Below are positions 8,681 through 63,991 of a stretch of DNA of 64,000 bases, one piece after another; the stretch's first letter is position 1; each line of letters begins with the position of its first letter. Made by a program: the position numbers and the translations under genes. This DNA comes from Bryobacteraceae bacterium. Its GTDB lineage: Bacteria > Acidobacteriota > Terriglobia > Bryobacterales > Bryobacteraceae. Under the pieces are notes generated by a model, which was given only the letters and a program-made list of their open reading frames with translations, was not told the origin of the DNA and ran no database searches. The stretch is from the NCBI GenBank assembly GCA_025056455.1, contig JANWVY010000001.1, positions 877,757 to 941,756 on the forward strand. The letters run 5' to 3'.

Positions 8681-11600
8681 TTACTTTACAGAAAGAAGGA
8701 CCGGGGGGCTATTCTGCCCAGCGGCACGGATCTGCAAGGGCACATCATCGCCGAGCCGTGTTTCAAGGGGCACGATAGCGCGAACTTCGTAGCCGCCCCC
8801 ACCCGCAGGATTGAGAATGGCGGATTTCAGCGGGGCCTCCCGGCCGTCTACCAGCACGACAGGCGTTGAGATCACGCGCGCGGGGGGCGAAGTGGGTGGC
8901 GGCGTCCCGGCTTCTACTTCTTGATCCACCGCACCCAATCCGTTGCAGAGGATGATGATTTCCTCGCCGCGCCGTACTGGATTCTGAGGGCCAATCAACG
9001 TGCCGTCGGCTGCCCTCAGTACGCTACCTCGCGCCGGCTGGCTCGTATCTGGAATGAAGACACCCGGACGGGCCTTGGCGACCGCGAGATCCTCAGGGAC
9101 ACTGGGTATCGTTTCACGGATCACTACGAGCGATTGCAAATCATCGGGGGTAAGTCCGAAGGGAATCACCGCGTTGATTTGATTACGGCTCACATAGCGT
9201 AGGGCCAGGCGTCGGCCGGCCAGCTCCACGCGCGTGCCTGCTAATTCCCGCGGGAGATTCTGAAGATCGGGCGCTTCCTGGGTAACTGGCGCTAGCTCCA
9301 ATCCGAAGATGGTCACTAGGCTGCCGGGCGCCACGAGCGGAATCTCCTGGTAGGTGGCGGAATCTACAATCGCCGTACGAACAGGAATTGGCGGCGGTGG
9401 AGGGGAATTTGCGAAGCGCACAGTATGGAGCTTGTCCTCGACGCCCAGCCGGTTGCCGACGATCAGATAAATTTGAAACGTGATCAGCACACTTGCCACG
9501 TTGCGGTTCACCGGAGTCCAGCTTCCGGTAAAGGTGAAGTTGCCGTTGTCGCGCAGCCGCACTGCAGGATCTCCATTCGAAAAAATCGCCCTTACGTCGG
9601 CGCTATAACTCCCCGAGCAGTTTACTGGGCGAGAGTAGATACGGAGAGAAATCACGCCGCCAGGCGATTCTTCGGCTCGTGGCGACTCAACCGTAGTTTG
9701 TAGCGTACAAGTCGCCTGTTCGCGCTCAGCCTTGAAGCCTTCCGTGTTGCCGACCAAGCTGAGAACGCTCAAAGTCCGCAAGGTGCCATCGGAAAAACGG
9801 ATCTGGACGTTACTGCGGTAGATGCCGGGCCCGAGATTCGAAAAATCTGGCTGTACGAGAATGCGAGCTTGCTCCCCGCGAGCGAGCCTGCCCGTTGCGG
9901 GCGCTACGGTCAGCCAGTCCTGACCGCTTGGCAAATTTCGAGCGGTTACATAATCCAAATCCTCTAAGCCCAGGTTGGCGATTTGCACGCTCTGAGAACC
10001 AGGCCTGGCGCCTGGAGCTGCAACAAATACCAGCGCGGCCGGCGCAAGCTCCGGCGGAGGAACTTGCCCGGGCGCCAGTACGGTGAAGTACACTGCGAGT
10101 TTCTGTGGTGAATTCGGAGCGCGCCCGGAGGGATCGCTCACGCGCAGCAAGGCGTTGTAATGACCGGGCGGTAGTCCAGCGGGATCGACGCGAACGGAAA
10201 CCTGAGCGGCTTGGCGGTGAGGCGCAAGGCTCCCGGACGCGTTTTCGAGCCGCAGCCAGCGCTCTGCGGCGAGGAATTCAACATCCACTCGAAAGGATAG
10301 ATCCCCCTCCCCGACGTTGAGTACGCCAAAAAATTGTGGCAGCGGAGGGCCTCCGCCGGCCACAGCCGTAAAGCGCAGCGAAGGGTGAGTGAGCAGAATT
10401 CGCGGCCGCGGCGCTTCTGCGACCACCAGCGTGACGAGCACTCGCTGCGTAGAGCCTAGGGCTCGGATTTCAATGCTGCCTGTATAGGTGTTTGGTGGCA
10501 GATTCGCGGCATCGACTTGTACTTGAACGAATGCTTTTTCGCTGGCGCGCACACTTATTTGGTCTGCTGTTGCCCGGAGCCACGGCGCTCCGTCTTCGGT
10601 GTAGGTGGTCAGTTCGAAGAACAACTCGCCTCCGCCCGAATTGCGCACCGTGATCAACCCGTTTTGAGGAGCATCTCCGGCCTTGACAGCGAACTCCAGT
10701 CGCGTGTCCTCGACGTTCAGTTTGGGTGGCTCCTCGGCCTCCACCAAGAGCCTCACCTGCACGCTTCGCGCGGGCGGATTGGCACCAGGAGATCGAAGGG
10801 TGATGGTGGCGGTATATTCACCCGGAGGCAGTCTGCCTGGATCAACGCGGACTTCGAGCTCGGAGGGCATGACGCCCTCTTCGGCAGTGAGACTGAGCCA
10901 GCCCGCACCGCGAGACAGCTGCACGCTCGCCTGGAACCGCATCCCCACCAGTGCACCTTGAAGCAGGATCGTTTGCGGCGGAGGCGACGGACCAGAACTC
11001 TTGGCCTGAAATAAAAGATTGGCTGGAGTGACGCTGAAGCTAGGCGCGACTGGCTGCACCATTCGAATGCGATGATTGCCTGTATCGGCAATGAGCAGGT
11101 TACCTCTCGAGTCAACAGCAACGCCGTTGGGTGTATTGAGCAGCGCCCCTGTGGCAAGCGCACCGTCGCCAGCAAATCCAGGACGTCCTGAGCCAGCCAC
11201 CACGGTCAGCATGCCACCCGATAGCCGGTAGACGACGTGCTGGGTCCGGTCAACAAAATAAACATCACCCTCGGGACTCACGGCGATTTGCGCGGGTTGA
11301 TCCAGTTGGACCTCTCGCGCCTGCGCGCTCTGTCCGGGCGCGAGCCGCCGGGAGCCCCCGCCCGCCACAATTGTGACAACGCCGTTGCTGAGCCGGCGGA
11401 TAACACGGTTCCCCGTGTCCCCGATGTAAATCACGCCGGTTGGATCGATCGCGACACCTCGTGGTGAGTTGAACCGGGCGGCAGTCGCCGTTACATTGTC
11501 GACCGCTGGGCCTGCCGCGCCGTCTGCAGCTCCGGCGAGCGTGCGGACTTGACCACCATCCAGGATCCGGATGCGGTGGGCGGCCGTCTCTGCAAACAGT

Positions 11601-13102
11601 AGCCTTCCCTGAGCATCCAAGGCCAGCTGCCAGGGCCAAGCCAGCGGGGTGGAACTGGCAGGACCATCGGCTCCAATTCTTGCTTCGCCCGTACCGGCGA
11701 CTGTTGTGACCTGACCGTTGCGAGCCACACGGCGGATGACATGACCCCGGCCATTGACATCCGCCGGACTATCTGTGTAAAAGACGTTTCCCTCGCGATC
11801 CGCCACGGCGCTGATGGGACCTACTGCAGCGGTTCGGGTTGCCGGCACGCCGTTATCGCCCAGAGCAAGCACACCGTTGCCGGCGAGAGTGGAAACTTGC
11901 GAGGGACTCGCGCGGCGGAGGCGATAGTTCCCGTTGTCGGCGATCAGAAGCCCGCTCCCATCACCGGCCACGCCGAAAGGGGAATTCAAGTAAGCGGCCA
12001 GTGCGGGTGTGCCGTCGTCATAGGCTTGAAAACGGCCGTTGCCGGCCAGAGTTGTCACTTCGCCGCCGATCACAATCCGCCGCAAGCGAAAATTTTCGCG
12101 GTCTGCAAGAAGAACCGCCCCGGCGGAGTCAAAGACAAAACCCGATGGCGAATGAAAGAGAGCCGTGTTGGAGTTACCGGCTTGGAAGCCAGGCGTACCG
12201 GCTCCCACGCTTGGCTCGAAGGCGCCTCCTCGCACGCGCCCGAGGCGGTGAGAGGTGAGCGAAGCGGCCCAGAGATTCCCTTCGCGATCAAAGGCCACGC
12301 CGGAAGGAGCACTCATCCGTGCCAGCAACGTCAGATTGCCCGAGGCGTCCCACTGCCGGATCGCATTCGCATTCAACTCGGCTAAAACGAGATGACCGCT
12401 GGAACTGACGGCAAGGGACTCAACGCCTCCAAGAGCAGTTTGCGTTGCAGGGACCGTAGGCGAGAGCGTGACGTTGGCTCCGCCATTTCCCGCAATGGTG
12501 GTGATCAATCCCGAGGGGCTAATTCGTCGAATGCGCCCAAAGCCGCGGTCGTTGACGTATACATTTCCTGCGCTGTCGACCACAACAGTGTACGGCAGAC
12601 AGAGGACAGCGTTCCCTGCGAGACCATGATCCCCACTGAAACCGCAAGTTCCATTGCCGGCCACGGTCGTGATGATTCCATCAGGTGAAACGCGCCGTAC
12701 CCGGTGATTTAACGTGTCAGCGACATACAAATTGCCTTGGCGGTCGTAAGCGACGCTACTCGGCGACCAGAGTGAAGCTTGGGTGGCTGGCTCCCCATCG
12801 CCAGAAAACGTCGCCAGGCCATTGCCGGCGAGCACCCGCAGCGTTCCATCTCGTTCGAGACGCATCACCATATGATTGCTTTGGTCAGCAAAGACAGCCC
12901 GGCCTTCACCATCCAGCGCAACGCCCACAAAGCGTCCCAGAGGAGCCTCGGTTGCGGGACGGCCCTCACCGCGGAAAATCCAGTCAGTGCCAACCAGAGT
13001 TGTGATTACGGATTGCGCAGACAACGCAGCTGTCAACAAAGTGGTTTTCAAAAAAAAGAAAACCCAGCGTCCACTCGTTGAAAGCGCCACAGACCCAATC
13101 AT
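8681..13102 (-). CDS. Very large secreted NHL-repeat beta-propeller protein with Solibacter-type C-terminal domain
   Basis: 1473 residues from the ATG at 13102. A TTG at 13162 with GAGG seven bases upstream would add 20 residues and is a real alternative. After a signal peptide (WVFFFLKTTLLTAALSAQS), residues about 40-640 hold a long series of NHL units of the form LYVADTLNHRVRRVSPDG-ITTVAGNG, enough for two propellers. Residues about 650-1150 contain five or six BACON/choice-of-anchor-like beta domains (AGWLSLTAEEG, WLTVAPATG). The last ~230 residues match the uncharacterised Solibacter C-terminal domain (VDSATYQEIPLVAPGSLVTI, FGLELAP). It is probably a surface or extracellular carbohydrate- or protein-binding protein. 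It follows the small barrel gene on the same strand. Confidence 0.88.
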   Translation of the reverse strand: MIGSVALSTSGRWVFFFLKTTLLTAALSAQSVITTLVGTDWIFRGEGRPATEAPLGRFVGVALDGEGRAVFADQSNHMVMRLERDGTLRVLAGNGLATFSGDGEPATQASLWSPSSVAYDRQGNLYVADTLNHRVRRVSPDGIITTVAGNGTCGFSGDHGLAGNAVLCLPYTVVVDSAGNVYVNDRGFGRIRRISPSGLITTIAGNGGANVTLSPTVPATQTALGGVESLAVSSSGHLVLAELNANAIRQWDASGNLTLLARMSAPSGVAFDREGNLWAASLTSHRLGRVRGGAFEPSVGAGTPGFQAGNSNTALFHSPSGFVFDSAGAVLLADRENFRLRRIVIGGEVTTLAGNGRFQAYDDGTPALAAYLNSPFGVAGDGSGLLIADNGNYRLRRASPSQVSTLAGNGVLALGDNGVPATRTAAVGPISAVADREGNVFYTDSPADVNGRGHVIRRVARNGQVTTVAGTGEARIGADGPASSTPLAWPWQLALDAQGRLLFAETAAHRIRILDGGQVRTLAGAADGAAGPAVDNVTATAARFNSPRGVAIDPTGVIYIGDTGNRVIRRLSNGVVTIVAGGGSRRLAPGQSAQAREVQLDQPAQIAVSPEGDVYFVDRTQHVVYRLSGGMLTVVAGSGRPGFAGDGALATGALLNTPNGVAVDSRGNLLIADTGNHRIRMVQPVAPSFSVTPANLLFQAKSSGPSPPPQTILLQGALVGMRFQASVQLSRGAGWLSLTAEEGVMPSELEVRVDPGRLPPGEYTATITLRSPGANPPARSVQVRLLVEAEEPPKLNVEDTRLEFAVKAGDAPQNGLITVRNSGGGELFFELTTYTEDGAPWLRATADQISVRASEKAFVQVQVDAANLPPNTYTGSIEIRALGSTQRVLVTLVVAEAPRPRILLTHPSLRFTAVAGGGPPLPQFFGVLNVGEGDLSFRVDVEFLAAERWLRLENASGSLAPHRQAAQVSVRVDPAGLPPGHYNALLRVSDPSGRAPNSPQKLAVYFTVLAPGQVPPPELAPAALVFVAAPGARPGSQSVQIANLGLEDLDYVTARNLPSGQDWLTVAPATGRLARGEQARILVQPDFSNLGPGIYRSNVQIRFSDGTLRTLSVLSLVGNTEGFKAEREQATCTLQTTVESPRAEESPGGVISLRIYSRPVNCSGSYSADVRAIFSNGDPAVRLRDNGNFTFTGSWTPVNRNVASVLITFQIYLIVGNRLGVEDKLHTVRFANSPPPPPIPVRTAIVDSATYQEIPLVAPGSLVTIFGLELAPVTQEAPDLQNLPRELAGTRVELAGRRLALRYVSRNQINAVIPFGLTPDDLQSLVVIRETIPSVPEDLAVAKARPGVFIPDTSQPARGSVLRAADGTLIGPQNPVRRGEEIIILCNGLGAVDQEVEAGTPPPTSPPARVISTPVVLVDGREAPLKSAILNPAGGGGYEVRAIVPLETRLGDDVPLQIRAAGQNSPPVLLSVK

Positions 13103-13196
13103 GCACTGGTTACAACTTGCCCGCCCCAAAACGAACTGCTTTCGGTTGGTCCGGGTGTTCAAGATTCAACCTCGCTGGCTGCCCCTCGTCTGATTC

Positions 13197-13817
13197 CTAG
13201 CGGCCCCAAATATAGAACACGCCAAAAGTGATTTTCATGAAGGGATCGTTAAAAGCAGGAATGTCCGAGTTAGGCTTGTAGCCCTTGGCCTCGATTCGGA
13301 TTCCCACATTCTGGCGCGCGTACCAGCGTAAGCCGCCCCCGAAATTAACTGCCAGATCCGTACGCTCGGGATCCGGCAATCGTGGCCCGCCGACGATTTC
13401 CGCTTGCCCAGCGTTCTTTCGCAGTCCTCCAACGCCAAAGGCAAAGTAGGGCATCACGGAAGGATTCCGCTTGAAAGGCACACGAAGGTGAATTCCTCCG
13501 TGGAAGTCGGAGAAGGAGTTTTTCCGGCGGACTTGGACGCGCCGTCCCGTCCCCTGTGCGACGATTTCTTCCTCTGCTGTCCGGTTCAGCAAGTCTGGGA
13601 AATAAGTGAATTCAAAATAGGGCAGCAACCACCGATTTGCGGCAACGGCAAAATTTGCTCCTGCTCCGGCGGCCGTTCTGCCCAACCCCCCTGCGAATCC
13701 CCCAAAAGCGCCAAACTCCACGGTGCCGGCATTCAGGTAGCTGACGTTTTGCCCCCAAGCTCGTAGCCCAGCAAGAGCGGTGAATGCGATGAGGACGAAG
13801 CGAAATTTGTATTTCAT
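13197..13817 (-). CDS. Small outer-membrane beta-barrel protein
   Basis: 206 residues. A signal peptide (FRFVLIAFTALAGLRAWGQ) is followed by alternating hydrophobic strands typical of an eight-stranded barrel, such as VEFGAFGGFAGG, WLLPYFEFTYF, VMPYFAFGVGG, LAVNFGGGLRWY and a final MKITFGVFYIWGR ending in a polar residue after aromatic ones. It belongs to the general OmpA/opacity-like small barrels of the outer membrane. It lies upstream of the giant NHL gene on the same strand with a short gap, so the two may be co-transcribed. The precise role is unknown. Confidence 0.8.
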   Translation of the reverse strand: MKYKFRFVLIAFTALAGLRAWGQNVSYLNAGTVEFGAFGGFAGGLGRTAAGAGANFAVAANRWLLPYFEFTYFPDLLNRTAEEEIVAQGTGRRVQVRRKNSFSDFHGGIHLRVPFKRNPSVMPYFAFGVGGLRKNAGQAEIVGGPRLPDPERTDLAVNFGGGLRWYARQNVGIRIEAKGYKPNSDIPAFNDPFMKITFGVFYIWGR

Positions 13818-13973: not shown

Positions 13974-16900
13974 TCAAAAAATGCAGCGGAAGCCGGTCCC
14001 GTTATAACCTTTGCGTCCATCAGCGGGAAACTTGTAGGAAATGCGCATCTGGTCACGGCCTTGGGCGAAATTTCCGCCTCGGAGCACAATCCCGCTGCCA
14101 GGTGAGTTTCCGGCGTAGGTGATCTCGGAGACATTACCCGTCATGTCGAAAAGGCCGAACGCATTCGGCTCGAGCATGGCGACGGCCTGCGGGGCTGGCT
14201 TAAAGTCAAAATAGGAAATTCTGGCCGAGGCTTGCGATCCTCCGATGAAAATCGCCTCGTAATTTCCTCCTCGCGCCGCAAACTCCCACTCCGCCTCGGT
14301 TGGTAAACGGCCATTGGGATTGGCCCAAGCGCAGTAGCTTTGGGCATCGGACGCCGTCACATTGACAACCGGCGACCGCGAATTGCTCCAAGATTTATCA
14401 AACACTGGCGGCTCTGGCATCTTCGCGCCGGTTTCAGAAGCGTACTTTTTGTACGCCTCGACAGTCACTTCGTGCTTACCAATATGGAAGGGGTTCACGG
14501 TCACAGCACGCGGAGATTCGAGTCTCTTATCGCATTTTGCGTCGCCTGTAACACATCCCATTTGGAAAGAGCCGCCAGGCAGCCGAACGTAGATCAATCC
14601 ATCTCGGCCCACACGCGTTGCGCCCGCTTTGGCCCCATCCGCGGGCTCTTTTTTGCTATCTCCAGCCTCCTTTTTCTTTTTGAGCTCATCCAGCCGGGCC
14701 ATCTCGCGAAGCAGGTTCTGCGCTTCTGGTTCAAACGGGCTCGCTTGATAGCGGTCTAAGAAGCGGCGGATTTCCTCGGCGCTATTCCTGGCCCGAGCGG
14801 TATTCCAGTCTTGAATCATGCGGAGGCGCTCTTCCGCCAGCTTCCGGGGCCGGCTGTTCGGAAAGCTTCGGAGGTATTCTTCGAGGTCGCTTGCCTGGAT
14901 GGAATCCTTTATCTTGGCCCAGGCTTCTACGGCGCGTAAATCTTCTAGCAGCTTGGTCGCTTCTCCCTCAAACGGACTTCCGGGGTAGCGGTCGCGAAAG
15001 GCTTCAAGGGATTCCAGCGTGGGTTGCACCTTGATCCTTTCCCATTCTCGCAGCGCATTCCACTCATTGAGCCGGATTCGCGCTTCGGCCGCGTGCGGCG
15101 ACTTGGGATGCTCCCGAAGATAACGTTCCATGGCGGCGGGGTCTTTACTGGCCAGGGTTTGCTGCCAGGCCGCCTCAGCGGCTTGCTTGAGCTCGTTCAG
15201 CATCTGCCGCGCCTCGGGCGCATACCTGCCCGCAGGAAAGGTTTGCAGATAGGCTTCGAGATTCGCGACTTCGCGCTTTCGCGAAGCCTCCAACCAAGTC
15301 TTCTCCTCCCCTTCAAGACGCGCCAGCAGCTGCCGCGCCAGTTCGTGGAAAACTCCGTCCGGATACGCGGCAAGAAACTTCTTCAGGGCACTCGGATCCG
15401 TCGCTGATCGTAACTGTTGCCAGACCCGGTCCTCGGCCTCGAGATAGGTGAGGCGCTTTCGGGCGGCAGCAGCATAGGCGCCATCCGGGTGGGCCGCTAA
15501 GAAACTTTTGAGCGCATCTCGGTTGCGCAGATCCAGATTGAGCCATTCCCGGGTCTCGCGAGCCGCTGCTTGGAGGTGTTTTTCCGGCGTCCTTGCGGGT
15601 TGCCGCGCCTGGCCCGCAGGCTGCTGAATCGTCGGAGACGCCCGGCTCGCTTGCCGGTCAGAGGGACCAGGCCGCTGCTCGCGCAACATGAACCAGCTGA
15701 CAGCCCCAACGACACATCCAGCCGCCGCGATTGCTCTGAGCCGCCGAAACAGAGCCCGTTTCCGCGCCTCGAGCGCCTGGAGCAAGACTTGGGCTTCCGC
15801 AGCGTGCTTGCTATGCGGGTAACGGGAAACAAAGGCGCGGCACTGAGCTAAATTCATGCTCTGACACACCTGCCGCCAGGCAGATTCTTCTTGGCGCAGC
15901 TGCGCGGCACGGGCCAGAGCGAGTTTGCCGAATTTGCTGCTAGCGCGAGTGGCGAAAGCTTCAAGCAGCGCAGGGTCGTCGCTCAAAGAAAGTCTGTTCC
16001 AGTTTTCTTCTTCGGCTTGCCAGGAGGCAAGCAAGCTTCCGGCTTGCGCCGCTCGCGGGGCATAGAAGAATTCAGCTAAGTAAAGGCGCAAGGCTTCCGG
16101 CTCGCCTGCCTCTATGGCCGACTGGTAAGTGCGCGCTTCCTTGGCCACCACCTCGAGCCGCTGCTTGGCTTCCGCCCGATGAAGGCCCAGCGGGTAATCG
16201 CTCAAATACCGCTCAATCTGGTGGACATCCCAGCTGTTTGCCACTGCTTCCCACGCCTTCTGCTCGCTCGCCCGGCGAATCGCTTCGATTGCGTTCAACG
16301 CCTCATCAAAGTGGATTCCGCGCGGATACTGCTCGAGGTAGCGCTGGAGCGAGACAAGCGTCGATTCCGCTTGCGCCTGGCGCCAGGCTTGCTCATCGGC
16401 CTCGCGCTCCAAGGCCTCGATCGCCTCTCTCGCTTCAGCAGCATGCAAGCCTTGGGGAAAACGCGCGAGATACATTTGGAAGGCAGCTCGATCCTTTTGC
16501 GCCTGAGCCTGCTGCCAGGCTTCTCGCTCGGCCAGCCGTTGTAACTCCTCAATCGCAGCCTGTGCCTGCCCGGCATAATTTCCAGAAGGAGACTGCCGGA
16601 GGTAGTTCTCGTAGGCAAGAACTGTATTCTGGCTGCAGGCCTCGAGCCACAACTGGCGGTCCCGCTGGATCTCGTTTAGCCGCTGCCGGGCGGGCTGAGC
16701 CAGTGGTCCATCGCCGAATTTTTCCAGAAAAGCGCGGAGCGCAGGCTCGGCTTGCTCACCGGAGCCGATTGCTTTCCACTCGGCTTGCTCCGCAGCAGCG
16801 AGCAGTTCGAGGCGGCGTGCCGCCTCGCTCGCAAAACGTCCGTTGGGATAGGCTTTCAAAAAAGCTTTTAAGCCTTGGCGCTGCAGCGGCCCTTGGATGG

Positions 16901-19334
16901 TCGGAATTTCCTCCCAAGCTGCCCGCTCTTGCACAAGTTGCGAGAGGAGCTTTTCGGCTTCGCGGTCAAAACGCCCCTCCGGATATTTCCGGCGAAACTC
17001 CACGACCTGTTTCTCATCCGGCTGAGACTGCAACAGTTGCCGCCATGTCTCGGTCTCCTCAAGCACTTGCGCCAGCAACAAGCGAGCCTGCCCCGCGTAG
17101 CGACCGGAAGGGAAATCACGCAGAAACTTTTGGAGCGCCTCGATCGAAGGTTGCCGTTCGAGCTTCTGCCATGAGGTTCGCTCCCGTTCTAACGTGGCGA
17201 GCTGACTTTCGGCCTGCGGCCGGTGTCGGGCATTTGGGAACTGTGTTAAGTAGGCCTGGAGCGCAGCTTGGTCGAGTTTGTCGGTGCGCTCCCAGGCTTG
17301 GTCGTCCGCTTGTTGCGCAAGTGATTCGATGCGCTCGAGGCGCTGTCGCGCCTCGGCGGCGTGAGGTCCTTTTGGAAAGTGGAGAAGAAAATTCCTGAGT
17401 TGTGCCAGGGTCCCCGGAGCATCATCCTCGACGGGAAGACTCTCCCAAGCTCGCCGCTCGCGCTCAAACTCTTGGAGCATTTCGGAGGCCTGCGCCGCAT
17501 GCGGGCCCTGCGGAAAGCGTTCCAGAAACGAAGACAGCGCCAGAGAACTCGGCGCCGTCACAATCTGCTCCCAGAGCTGGGCTTCGGCACGCAACTCTTC
17601 CAGCCGCTGTTGCGCCGCGGCCCGGAAGCGGCTCTGCGGATTTTGGAGGAGAAATAGCTCCACCTCTTCGGCCCGGTACGAAACGCGCGTCCTCTCCCAG
17701 GCCGCCGCTTCGTTTCGTAATTTTCCAAGCAGCGCACGAGCCTTCAGGGCATGGGCACCAGCGGGATAGCGTGCCAGATAGCTCTCCAGGGCCTCTTCTT
17801 GTTCCGACTCTGAAGCCAGCCGCCAGGCCTCGTTTTCTGCGCGCAATTCCTCTAGTCTTGTTTTGGCTTTCCAGGCATATTGACCTTGTGGAAATTCGGC
17901 GAGAAATTTTTCTAACGCGATGATGTCGTCGGAGTCCTGAATACGCTGCCAGCTGCGCTGCTCAGCTTCCAGAGACTCTAAACGTTGCTGGGCCTGAGCC
18001 GCATGAAGGCCGGCCGGATACTGGCGAAGGTACAAACGGTAGGCAGGGATCTGATCTTGGGCGGTTGCCAGCCGCCAGGCCGCTGCCTCAGCCGCGAGTT
18101 CGGCAAGCCGCTCTCTTGCCGCTGACTCATGGGGGCCTCCGGGAAATTGTTGGAGGAAATTCTCAAGCCGTTGCGGATCGGTGGTAAAGCGGACTTGTTC
18201 CCAAACTCCGAACTCCGCCTCGAGCCATTCGAGCCTCCGTTGGGCCGTTTCGGCGTAGATACCGTTTGGAAAGCGTTGCAGGAATGCTTGTAGAGTAGCG
18301 ACGCTGGCTTCCTTGCGAACCGATTCCCAGCTTGCTTCCTCCAGTTGCAGTTCGAGCAGCCGCTGCTGCGCTTCCCAGCTAAACTGGCTCTCCGGGAACC
18401 GCTCCAGAAATTCCTGGATGGCCTTCGCATCATTTGTGCCTTTGACCCGGCTCCACAGGTTCAACTCCTCCTCCGCCGATTCAAGCAAGGATTCCGCATC
18501 GCCGTAACCCTCGAGGGCGGCTTCTAGCTCCTGTACAAATTCCAGGCAACTTCTGAACCGCTGTTCCGGAAGCTTGGCTGTGGCCTTGGATAGAACAGCA
18601 TAGGCTCGCTCGGGAAACAGCTTGCTCACAGAGCGCAAGCTGGGCAAAGGATGATTCCGGATCTGGTCAAAGAGAACATACAGCGTATTGCCCTGAAACG
18701 GCTTGCGTCCGAGCAACAGTTCGTAGGCCAGGACAGCGAAAGAGAACTGGTCGCCCTTTGGTCCCCACGGCAGGCCAGTGATGGCCTCAGGCGGCATGTA
18801 GTGCGGCGTTCCGGCCATCATACCTGCCTCGGTCAGCGTGTTGGAGCTGGCCGCTAAGCCGCCTTCGAGGCTTTTCGCAATGCCAAAATCCGTCAACTTG
18901 ACCACGCCATCGGAGCGGATCATCACATTTTCCGGTTTGACATCGCGATGAATGACGGCGCGGGAGTGTGCGTAGTCGAGCGCCGAAGCGATTTGGCTGA
19001 GAATTCGCAACCGCTCGGAGAGTGCCAACCGTTTCTCTTTCTGAACCAGCTGCCGTAGGTTGACCCCCTCAACCAGCTCCATGACGATGTAAACGGGCTC
19101 GCGATCCGCTTCAAAGTCATGGATGATGACGATGTTGGGGTGAGAAAGCTGCGCTGCGTTGCGGGCTTCGCGGCGAAAACGTTCCTTGAGCAGGGGCACG
19201 ACAGAGACGTCGCCTTCGATGCGCAAGGTTTTAATCGCGACGGAACGGCCGAGATTCGGGTCATAGCCGAGCAGGATGGAGCCCATCCCGCCGCTTCCCA
19301 AGCTCCCCTTAATCTCGTAGCGACCGAGTTTCAA
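13974..19334 (-). CDS. Giant transmembrane Ser/Thr kinase with 28 helical repeats and SUMF1-like domain
   Basis: 1786 residues. The TTG start is supported by AAGG five to nine bases upstream. Residues 5-275 are a Hanks-type kinase with all key residues: GSGGMG loop, Lys35 (VAIKTL), HRDVKPEN (Asp131) and DFG (149-151). From about 300 to 1185 run 21 repeats of roughly 42 residues with consensus W-x(13)-FL-x-x-[FY]P-x-G-x(3)-A-x-x-A-x(2)-L-x(2)-L-x-x-E. One membrane helix follows (about 1192-1212, IAAAGCVVGAVSWFML), then a Pro/Gln linker, seven more repeats (about 1260-1550) and a SUMF1/FGE-like domain ending in GFRCIF (about 1578-1786). The kinase side should be cytoplasmic and the SUMF1 side periplasmic. 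The SUMF1 domain keeps RLPTEAEWEFAARGG and GLFDMTGNVSE but I see no FGE-type catalytic cysteine pair, so it is more likely a binding module. Substrates are unknown. Confidence 0.93.
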   Translation of the reverse strand: MKLGRYEIKGSLGSGGMGSILLGYDPNLGRSVAIKTLRIEGDVSVVPLLKERFRREARNAAQLSHPNIVIIHDFEADREPVYIVMELVEGVNLRQLVQKEKRLALSERLRILSQIASALDYAHSRAVIHRDVKPENVMIRSDGVVKLTDFGIAKSLEGGLAASSNTLTEAGMMAGTPHYMPPEAITGLPWGPKGDQFSFAVLAYELLLGRKPFQGNTLYVLFDQIRNHPLPSLRSVSKLFPERAYAVLSKATAKLPEQRFRSCLEFVQELEAALEGYGDAESLLESAEEELNLWSRVKGTNDAKAIQEFLERFPESQFSWEAQQRLLELQLEEASWESVRKEASVATLQAFLQRFPNGIYAETAQRRLEWLEAEFGVWEQVRFTTDPQRLENFLQQFPGGPHESAARERLAELAAEAAAWRLATAQDQIPAYRLYLRQYPAGLHAAQAQQRLESLEAEQRSWQRIQDSDDIIALEKFLAEFPQGQYAWKAKTRLEELRAENEAWRLASESEQEEALESYLARYPAGAHALKARALLGKLRNEAAAWERTRVSYRAEEVELFLLQNPQSRFRAAAQQRLEELRAEAQLWEQIVTAPSSLALSSFLERFPQGPHAAQASEMLQEFERERRAWESLPVEDDAPGTLAQLRNFLLHFPKGPHAAEARQRLERIESLAQQADDQAWERTDKLDQAALQAYLTQFPNARHRPQAESQLATLERERTSWQKLERQPSIEALQKFLRDFPSGRYAGQARLLLAQVLEETETWRQLLQSQPDEKQVVEFRRKYPEGRFDREAEKLLSQLVQERAAWEEIPTIQGPLQRQGLKAFLKAYPNGRFASEAARRLELLAAAEQAEWKAIGSGEQAEPALRAFLEKFGDGPLAQPARQRLNEIQRDRQLWLEACSQNTVLAYENYLRQSPSGNYAGQAQAAIEELQRLAEREAWQQAQAQKDRAAFQMYLARFPQGLHAAEAREAIEALEREADEQAWRQAQAESTLVSLQRYLEQYPRGIHFDEALNAIEAIRRASEQKAWEAVANSWDVHQIERYLSDYPLGLHRAEAKQRLEVVAKEARTYQSAIEAGEPEALRLYLAEFFYAPRAAQAGSLLASWQAEEENWNRLSLSDDPALLEAFATRASSKFGKLALARAAQLRQEESAWRQVCQSMNLAQCRAFVSRYPHSKHAAEAQVLLQALEARKRALFRRLRAIAAAGCVVGAVSWFMLREQRPGPSDRQASRASPTIQQPAGQARQPARTPEKHLQAAARETREWLNLDLRNRDALKSFLAAHPDGAYAAAARKRLTYLEAEDRVWQQLRSATDPSALKKFLAAYPDGVFHELARQLLARLEGEEKTWLEASRKREVANLEAYLQTFPAGRYAPEARQMLNELKQAAEAAWQQTLASKDPAAMERYLREHPKSPHAAEARIRLNEWNALREWERIKVQPTLESLEAFRDRYPGSPFEGEATKLLEDLRAVEAWAKIKDSIQASDLEEYLRSFPNSRPRKLAEERLRMIQDWNTARARNSAEEIRRFLDRYQASPFEPEAQNLLREMARLDELKKKKEAGDSKKEPADGAKAGATRVGRDGLIYVRLPGGSFQMGCVTGDAKCDKRLESPRAVTVNPFHIGKHEVTVEAYKKYASETGAKMPEPPVFDKSWSNSRSPVVNVTASDAQSYCAWANPNGRLPTEAEWEFAARGGNYEAIFIGGSQASARISYFDFKPAPQAVAMLEPNAFGLFDMTGNVSEITYAGNSPGSGIVLRGGNFAQGRDQMRISYKFPADGRKGYNGTGFRCIF

Positions 19335-19441: not shown

Positions 19442-20404
19442 CTACTTGCGCCGGAGCGCACGCCGGGCCGCCTCAGCCACTTTGGCGGCAGTCAAGCCGT
19501 ATTTTTGGAGGAGCGCCTCCGGAGAACCAGATTCGGCGTAAGTGTTTTCCAGGCCGACATACTCCATCACGCAAGGCCGAGTCCGCGAGACGACCTGGGC
19601 CACTCTTACCCCGAGCCCGCCATCCACCAGATGCTCCTCACTGACGACAATCGCGCCCGTTTCCGAAGCTGCTTTTGTAATGGCCGCTTCGTCAAGCGGT
19701 TTTATGGTGGGCATATCGATCACGCGGGCCGAGATGCCGTCGGCATCGAGCATTTCCGCAGCGCGAATGGATTCGGCTACCATAAGCCCGTGCGCCATGA
19801 GAGTGACGTCTTTGCCGTCTAGCAACTGAATGGCTTTGCCGATTTCGAATTTCTGGTCCTTGGAATACACGACGGGCACTTTGGGCCTGCCCGCGCGAAT
19901 AAATACTGGGCCCACGTGCGAGGCCGCCAGTCGAACAAAGGCGCCCATGGCCACTTCATCAGCCGGGCTCAACACCACAAACCCGGGGAGGCTACAGGCA
20001 AGCGCTAGGTCCTCAATGCTCATTTGCGACGGGCCGTCTTCACCGATGGAAATCCCCGAGTGCGTTCCTACCACTTTTACATTCGTGTTGGGATACGCCA
20101 CGGTAACCCGCAGCTGTTCAAAACCTTTGTTGAGGACAAAAGCAGAGAAACTGGCTACGAAGGGAATCTTGCCGCTCGAAGCAAGACCGGCTCCCACCGC
20201 CACCATATTCGCCTCCGCGATGCCGCAAGAAAAGAACCGGTCAGGAAACTCCTTGGCGAAATAATGCACCATGGTGGACTTGGAGAGGTCCGCGTCACAC
20301 ACAACCACGTCTTTGTTTTCCCGGCCGATCTCCACCAAGGCCCGGCCAAACGCTTCCCGAGTCGCTTGACCAAGCTTCAGTTCGTATTTTGTGCTGACAG
20401 CCAT
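19442..20404 (-). CDS. Transketolase C-terminal subunit (split transketolase)
   Basis: 320 residues from the ATG at 20404, one base after the stop of the N-terminal subunit (TAA-g-ATG), so the two subunits are translationally coupled. It has the pyrimidine-binding domain (VVVCDADLSKSTMVHYFAKE, CGIAEANMVAVGAGLA with the conserved Glu, HSGISIGEDGPSQM) and the C-terminal transketolase domain (VEEHL-like VSEEHLVDGGLG). With its partner it transfers two-carbon units between sugar phosphates in the pentose phosphate pathway, using TPP, in the cytoplasm. Confidence 0.93.
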   Translation of the reverse strand: MAVSTKYELKLGQATREAFGRALVEIGRENKDVVVCDADLSKSTMVHYFAKEFPDRFFSCGIAEANMVAVGAGLASSGKIPFVASFSAFVLNKGFEQLRVTVAYPNTNVKVVGTHSGISIGEDGPSQMSIEDLALACSLPGFVVLSPADEVAMGAFVRLAASHVGPVFIRAGRPKVPVVYSKDQKFEIGKAIQLLDGKDVTLMAHGLMVAESIRAAEMLDADGISARVIDMPTIKPLDEAAITKAASETGAIVVSEEHLVDGGLGVRVAQVVSRTRPCVMEYVGLENTYAESGSPEALLQKYGLTAAKVAEAARRALRRK

Positions 20405-20405
20405 C

Positions 20406-21224
20406 TTATGCAAGCTCCTTTAAAGCAAGTGCCAGTTCCTCGCGGGTTGGGGCTGTGCCGTGGAATTTCGGATTATTTTCCATAAACGACACGCCTTTGC
20501 CTTTAATGGTGTGGGCAATTAAACAAGTAGGCCGGCCTTTGGTGGCCGCCGCTTCCGCAAAAGCCGAGCGAATGGCCTCGAGATCGTGCCCGTCTAGTTC
20601 TAGGGTATGCCAGCCGAAGGCGCGCCACTTCTCGGCGAGGGGCTCCAGCTCCATAATGTCCTTCACCCAGCCGTCGAGCTGGATTTTGTTGTAGTCGACG
20701 ATGGCAACAATATTGTCCACTTTATGGAAAGCGGCAAACATGGCAGCCTCCCAAATCTGGCCCTCTTGAATTTCGCCATCTCCCAGCATGACGTAGACAC
20801 GCGAGGGGCGATGGTCAAGGCGCGCCGCTAAAGCCATGCCCAAGCCGATCGAAAGCCCTTGCCCGAGCGAACCCGTAGAGGCCTCGAGAGCTGGAATAAA
20901 TCGGCGGTCGGGGTGTCCCTGGTAGATCGAGCCGAGCTGCCGGAGCGTCTTGAGCTCACTCACGGGCGTATAGCCGCACTCCGCCATGATCGCGTACAGC
21001 ACCGGGCAAGCGTGCCCTTTTCCGAGAATGAACCGGTCTCGATCTGGCCAGTGCGGATTTTTCGGATCGTGACGCATGACCTCTTTGTAGAGCACAGCCA
21101 GGATTTCAACTGCTGACAGCGAACCACCCGGATGCCCGGATTTGGCTTCCGTGATCATTTCGACAATATGACGCCGGATCAGCTTGCAGAACTGCTGGAG
21201 TTGATTGAGATCGGTGGTGGACAT
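20406..21224 (-). CDS. Transketolase N-terminal subunit (split transketolase)
   Basis: 272 residues, the TPP-binding half. It has the metal/diphosphate motif GDGEIQEGQIWEAAMFAAFH...NIVAIVDYN (GDG-x25-N type), SGHPGGSLSAVEIL, GKGHACPVLYA and STGSLGQGLSIGLGMA. Two-gene transketolases are common in archaea and in several bacterial phyla. Nothing appears to be missing. It is the first gene of a two-gene operon with the C-terminal subunit. Confidence 0.93.
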   Translation of the reverse strand: MSTTDLNQLQQFCKLIRRHIVEMITEAKSGHPGGSLSAVEILAVLYKEVMRHDPKNPHWPDRDRFILGKGHACPVLYAIMAECGYTPVSELKTLRQLGSIYQGHPDRRFIPALEASTGSLGQGLSIGLGMALAARLDHRPSRVYVMLGDGEIQEGQIWEAAMFAAFHKVDNIVAIVDYNKIQLDGWVKDIMELEPLAEKWRAFGWHTLELDGHDLEAIRSAFAEAAATKGRPTCLIAHTIKGKGVSFMENNPKFHGTAPTREELALALKELA

Positions 21225-60849: not shown

Positions 60850-60859
60850 CGTCATAATC

Positions 60860-60971
<112 letters not shown>

Positions 60972-61062
60972 AAAGCTTGTGGAAACTTGTGGCATCTGGC
61001 ATGAAAAGGTTGATGGGCGCGGCGATGAGGCAAGCGTGGAATGCATCGATAGTAAATTTTAT
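60972..61062 (-). other. 23S-5S intergenic spacer
   Basis: About 91 bases separate the two rRNAs. No tRNA is present. It contains one arm of the 23S processing stem (61054-61062). Confidence 0.7.

Positions 61063-61070
<8 letters not shown>
61054..61070 (-). repeat. 3' arm of the 23S processing stem
   Basis: AAATTTTATGGTCAAGC on the plus strand is the exact reverse complement of 63984-64000. The two arms bracket the 23S gene and would form the long helix cut by RNase III. Confidence 0.85.

Positions 61071-63983
<2,913 letters not shown>

Positions 63984-63991
<8 letters not shown>

Follow-up and report, generated by a model that had tools for sequence, protein, structure and literature searches.

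The window analyzed here, a stretch of 64,000 nucleotides from a Bryobacteraceae bacterium, carries on its minus strand a gene (13974..19334, stop codon included) for a 1786-amino-acid Hanks-type kinase in which tandem units of one repeat family lie on both sides of a single predicted membrane helix. The chain runs from the kinase domain through 21 units, a hydrophobic segment and seven further units to an FGE/SUMF1-like domain, with the 28 units making up about two thirds of its length. This architecture had been proposed in the original prediction, and Pfam, a unit HMM and hydropathy all bore it out. Each component is of a known kind; what is unusual is the way they are combined, a variant shared by a few related genomes. 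With reasonable confidence, we read the protein as a receptor-type kinase that sits in the inner membrane, has a TPR scaffold in the cytoplasm and extends a periplasmic arm that would carry an FGE-like sensor, perhaps directed towards a predicted outer-membrane barrel.

Gene and kinase domain

The gene starts with TTG, an in-frame stop lies four codons 5′ of it with no other start between, and its reading frame leads into KLGRYEIKG, a typical kinase opening. The same open frame was recovered in a genome search, and the plus-strand reading of the interval contains many stops. We rejected an artefact of frame or assembly, as the open frame is free of stops and full-length relatives are present in two other genomes. 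Directly upstream, a transketolase, named by eye, is encoded as two overlapping genes (19442-21224). Minus-strand genes for 5S and LSU rRNA occupy the end of the window (60857-63991), the last 2 kb of which show marked GC and AT skew.

Pfam, a PDB search and alignment place the Hanks-type Ser/Thr kinase domain at residues 4-278 (18501..19325, minus strand). Pfam PF00069 matches at 3.7e-49, with the best stretch at residues 6-259, and PknB is the best PDB match. The glycine loop, VAIK lysine, HRD and DFG of Hanks-type kinases are all present, and the loop glycines, K35, HRD131, N136 and DFG149-151 are invariant in a four-row alignment of the window kinase and its relatives, showing that the catalytic residues are retained; phosphotransfer activity itself is predicted. 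A PASTA kinase (PknB/Stk1) was rejected, because NF033483 scored 275.3 bits against a cut-off of 450 with the match confined to residues 4-298; the Pfam search of the protein returned no PASTA repeats.

One repeat family on both sides of a predicted membrane helix

The upstream array, presumed cytoplasmic, has 21 units at residues 294-1192 (15759..18455, minus strand), and the downstream array, presumed periplasmic, has seven at residues 1264-1549 (14688..15545, minus strand). All four rounds of an iterated unit HMM returned these 28 units. One unit, at 1112-1150, is weak (i-Evalue from 0.0024 to 0.01 between runs, and missed at 0.01 in one run), so that 27 to 28 is a fair count. Because the first HMM seeds had been picked by a regular expression built on the motif of the earlier reading, the two arrays were also tested against each other, with unit boundaries taken from the joint HMM. 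An HMM built from the 21 upstream units recovered all seven downstream units (E 2e-63), and one built from the seven downstream units recovered 21 of 21 upstream units (408.7 bits, E 8.9e-130), while the top score among 500 shuffles of the upstream region was 8.5 bits. The two arrays are one family beyond chance, and the expected internal repeat thus stands well above the shuffled background.

Each unit has a core of W, then L-x2-F/Y-L-x2-F/Y-P-x-G and A-x2-A-x3-L-x2-L. The units had been described as 42 residues long, which holds for most spacings, though the actual range is 41-46. They had also been described as diverged at the DNA level, in agreement with a mean pairwise identity of 30% among units and with the absence of any DNA tandem array in the TRF report on the window's kinase gene. 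Over the repeats, Pfam YfiO (PF13525) matches at 4.1e-30 (105.5 bits, cut-off 25) and the NCBIfam model OM_YfiO TIGR03302 at 87.2 bits (cut-off 81.4). A novel repeat fold was rejected on account of the YfiO match above cut-off, and sequence profile and structure models agree in direction, both pointing to TPR units of the described BamD/YfiO type.

AlphaFold2 models were built from four-row alignments for residues 1190-1786 and 1-1196, and both showed helix pairs in the repeats, which the original prediction had described as helical. In the model of 1190-1786, each of the seven downstream units forms a short and a long helix with block pLDDT of 84-94; the FGE-like part is modeled poorly (block pLDDT 26-75), and its fold is therefore judged from sequence. 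In the model of 1-1196, moderately confident helix pairs extend through nearly all of the upstream array and weaken around residues 600-870. A Foldseek search with the downstream model placed BamD first, from a BamA-BamD fusion (E 4.0e-4, with low TM of 0.12-0.16), FGE ninth and PvdO tenth. With the 1-1196 model, all 50 matches listed were kinases and do not address the repeats. In a VIA-align comparison, BamD aligned over 83 residues with Z as high as 7.9, a value that can be generic for helical repeats. BamD itself was rejected as an identity for this 1786-residue protein, which begins with its kinase domain and has no signal or lipobox that we could see.

The segment between the arrays, residues 1199-1217 (15684..15740, minus strand), is the sole stretch of the chain above a mean Kyte-Doolittle hydropathy of 1.6 (1.78; next best 1.02), and FRRLR lies on its N side. 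Hydropathy and charge therefore predict one membrane helix with an array on either side. A hydrophobic stretch is found between the arrays of the relatives as well (2.16 in genome G002, 2.32 in G001 and 1.98 in G007).

The terminal FGE-like domain

Pfam FGE-sulfatase (PF03781) matches residues 1583-1785 (13980..14588, minus strand) at 1e-34 (120.8 bits, cut-off 23.3), and a PDB search with this domain gave matches to human FGE. The catalytic cysteines of FGE fall between an RGG-like motif and the closing GFRC, and the corresponding stretch was located by these motifs, as the PDB alignments shown do not cover it. The window's domain has four cysteines, in MGC, AKC, YCAW and GFRC, and in the window, G002 and G001 the stretch separating the RGG motif from GFRC contains no cysteine. 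The G007 domain has two there, spaced 8 instead of the 5 of the human catalytic pair, Cys336/Cys341 (extract of PMC4505483). With the pair missing, an active formylglycine-generating enzyme was rejected and a binding role is preferred, so that the terminal domain is probably a binding domain.

Relatives and distribution

Of 12 genomes in the genus, four have strong arrays at 1e-20 (the window's own, G001, G002 and G007), and at E 1e-15 such arrays were found in 7 of 396 genomes of the phylum, the window's own included; at 1e-8, arrays were found in 26 of 200 family genomes, from which 17 stretches were taken. A search for homologues with the same two-sided layout yielded full-length proteins in G001 (1773 amino acids, 20+5 units) and G002 (1700 amino acids, 18+5 units), and in G007 a gene in two pieces at contig ends, with the kinase and 11 units on contig C37 and two units, the predicted membrane helix, six units and the FGE domain on C30. 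Taken as a kinase, at least two units, a membrane helix, at least two units and an FGE domain, this layout occurs in 3 of 168 kinase ORFs (window, G001, G002), in addition to the split G007 gene; the 168 are distinct ORFs from the fetched loci, with those shorter than 400 amino acids dropped, a sample biased to kinase or repeat hits. In 18 other unit-bearing kinase ORFs, the units are on one side of the membrane helix or no helix was called. The original prediction had called a matched array on both faces of the membrane unusual, and the two-sided layout is indeed rare among the fetched kinases; the units belong to a described family. A literature search, with most subscription journals outside its scope, gave no two-sided repeat kinase among the matches listed.

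The repeat is also found in proteins of the family other than kinases, since a caspase-fold protein (L078:3313-4695) carries two of the Trp units. In G450, a gene adjoining a kinase-TM-FGE gene encodes a hydrophobic segment, five units and a ricin-B lectin domain (L172:3708-5354). A consensus-like repeat searched against plasmids matched three Rhizobium records annotated as adenylate/guanylate cyclase. Unit-free kinase-FGE proteins are present at loci L006, L013 and L172 with a membrane helix and at L202 without a called one, and every one of the 41 genomes searched for receptor kinases gave matches.

Array growth and trees

At the end of C37 (L023:5834-6363), a 258-bp block of two units is repeated 2.1 times at 99%, and at the other G007 contig end (L063:5294-5516) there are near-identical 123-bp units at 86%. 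These near-identical units probably mark where the assembly broke inside the kinase gene, and the block shows that duplication has enlarged the array in G007. Expansion by duplication of the unit, as had been proposed, is thus plausible, but derivation of one array from the other inside the chain is unsupported, because identity between arrays (0.27-0.28) is no higher than within them (0.26-0.30). Unit order in the upstream array is kept between the window and G002, where 0 of 500 order shuffles reached the score, and is weaker or absent in the other comparisons (window against G001, 31 of 500; G002 against G001, 208; window against G007, 161). For the downstream arrays, the score was reached by 181 of 500 shuffles between window and G002, 12 between window and G001, 33 between G002 and G001, and 308 between window and G007. 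The three units nearest the kinase are the most alike, with 51, 51 and 45% identity between window and G002.

The kinase tree, with rows from an explicit list, grouped the window kinase with those of G002 and G001 (99/99). The G007 kinase paired instead with a four-unit kinase of G133 (93/91), and those of G258, G283 and G501 formed a separate group (99/98). On these groupings, the combination of a kinase with this repeat probably arose more than once, and the G007 line may have exchanged its kinase. In the FGE tree the domains of the four kinases form one group (98/98). Taken as unrooted, the tree joins them to those of six barrel loci, whose surroundings were read and are described below, and to three more FGE domains (95/93). 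The rows of the FGE tree were picked by likeness to the window domain, which is present twice, and the tree, drawn with a midpoint root, has two long branches and leaves 9 of 17 inner branches open.

A predicted barrel gene beside the kinase gene

The next gene downstream (13197..13817, minus strand) encodes a protein of 206 amino acids with a signal-like start by eye and no Pfam hit. Its G001 relative matches OMP_b-brl below cut-off, weak evidence on which we predict an outer-membrane barrel. It is followed by a gene for a 1493-amino-acid NHL/BACON protein (8681..13162, minus strand), which is near the kinase gene in three of the four genomes (window, G002 and G007). The barrel gene adjoins the kinase gene in all four, divergently in G007, and within the genus a barrel match was found in 4 of 12 genomes, exactly those with the kinase array. 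For unlinked traits the chance of the same four is 1 in 495, a figure that applies to independent events, which these four are not since the genomes are related.

Barrel matches at 0.001 occurred in 25 of 200 family genomes, 21 of them outside the genus, and we fetched the 11 stronger loci of these, reading 9-19 kb of each. An FGE gene is present in six (G059, G214, G172, G210, G207 and G133), and in four of the six a kinase gene also lies beside it (not in G059 or G207); three of these four (G214, G172 and G210) belong to one genus. All six FGE proteins are fusions of a C14 caspase-fold domain with FGE (L191:10678-12201, L193:3379-4920, L190:10079-11647, L195:15131-16711, L196:10497-12068 and L197:570-2111), and all start with a hydrophobic, signal-like N-terminal stretch. 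By eye, the C14 domains that we read seem to have lost or changed the usual caspase catalytic residues. Prokaryotes are known to have caspase-FGE fusions, which make up 4.9% of the sequences in PMC3501461. The four kinases all carry TPRs, are encoded by genes separate from the C14-FGE gene, and are not the nearest kinases to that of the window. At the other 5 of 11 loci, some on short contigs, the stretch read had no FGE gene, and two of the 11 (G093 and G133) encode an NHL protein matched in six stretches.

Proposed function and alternatives

We infer topology, ligand, barrel contact, kinase activity and substrates in the account that follows. The kinase and about 21 BamD-type TPR units would lie in the cytoplasm, one helix would pass through the inner membrane, and seven periplasmic units would serve as a spacer and hold the non-catalytic FGE-like (C-type-lectin-like) domain. 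This domain would bind a periplasmic ligand or protein; the neighboring barrel protein is the best single candidate, although the odds are somewhat against it. Binding may alter the dimerization or position of the kinase, and the long cytoplasmic array may recruit substrates or partners, the usual role of TPR domains. A receptor kinase is the simplest account, in which TPR arrays would lengthen both arms of the short kinase-TM-FGE form.

A weaker but serious competitor is that the chain works chiefly as a scaffold or tether in the envelope, with the arrays assembling proteins on both faces, the kinase acting on the recruits and the FGE-like domain serving as an anchor. The share of the chain taken by the units fits such a role, as do the predicted barrel gene next door and the closest fold found, BamD, itself a scaffold of the barrel assembly machine. 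However, the kinase has kept its catalytic residues, and the short kinase-TM-FGE proteins of the family, in which no units were detected, indicate that kinase and FGE occur together without a scaffold. Somewhat less probable still is a new signaling module spanning the envelope, in which an outer-membrane barrel, an FGE-like sensor in the periplasm and a kinase in the inner membrane would act together, encoded by separate genes in other genera and joined in a single chain in this genus; the solenoid on both faces would act as a matched arm passing force or position across the membrane.

It is very unlikely that the hydrophobic segment stays out of the membrane and the whole chain is cytoplasmic: its hydropathy is modest and the units on both sides are similar, but three relatives have a hydrophobic stretch here, after which a charged, low-complexity linker is seen by eye, and the starts of the separate FGE proteins encoded at barrel loci are signal-like. 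Least probable of all is that the FGE-like domain works with the kinase as an enzyme, forming formylglycine or carrying out some other oxidation, since against the strong Pfam match and the PDB matches to human FGE stand the missing cysteines in window, G002 and G001 and the altered spacing in G007. Returning to the receptor kinase, ligands are known for few of the receptor kinases that abound in these bacteria, and the recurring neighborhood of barrel, kinase and FGE, fused in some genomes and split in others, offers a specific candidate partner.

Comparison with known systems

FGE-type-domain kinases and TPR kinases were described in 2005 (PMC1262709, in extract). The chlamydial kinase with a DUF323/FGE domain likewise joins a Hanks kinase to an FGE-like C-terminal domain, but the extract names no repeat array around a membrane helix (PMC1262709). 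Within the family, the L006 (558 amino acids) and L013 (585 amino acids) proteins also have a kinase, a single membrane helix and an FGE-sulfatase domain, with units undetected on either side.

Kinases of G258, G283 and G133, and of G501 without a called membrane helix, resemble the window kinase in that a run of units (3-20 by threshold) follows the kinase. In contrast to it, their units (19-20 in G258, 9-11 in G283 and four in G133) lie before the membrane helix only, and there is no FGE domain. The units of G283 and G258 match the unit HMM, with Pfam YfiO below cut-off in the former and absent in the latter. The proteins of L066, L068 and L072, which run kinase-TPR-TM-PEGA with one to four units, are likewise membrane kinases with a solenoid inside and few units outside; however, their inside solenoid matches other TPR families, PEGA takes the place of FGE, and the Trp units come after the membrane helix only.

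The BamD/YfiO and YbgF TPR proteins (PF13525, TIGR03302) share the unit profile and the helix pairs, and the periplasm is where BamD acts. BamD is, however, a short lipoprotein with far fewer copies of the unit, whereas the window kinase has 28 tandem units, at a spacing of about 42 that is longer than that of BamD, on both sides of a predicted helix and fused to a kinase. One solenoid family on both faces of a membrane helix would make this protein a case for studying adaptation to two compartments.
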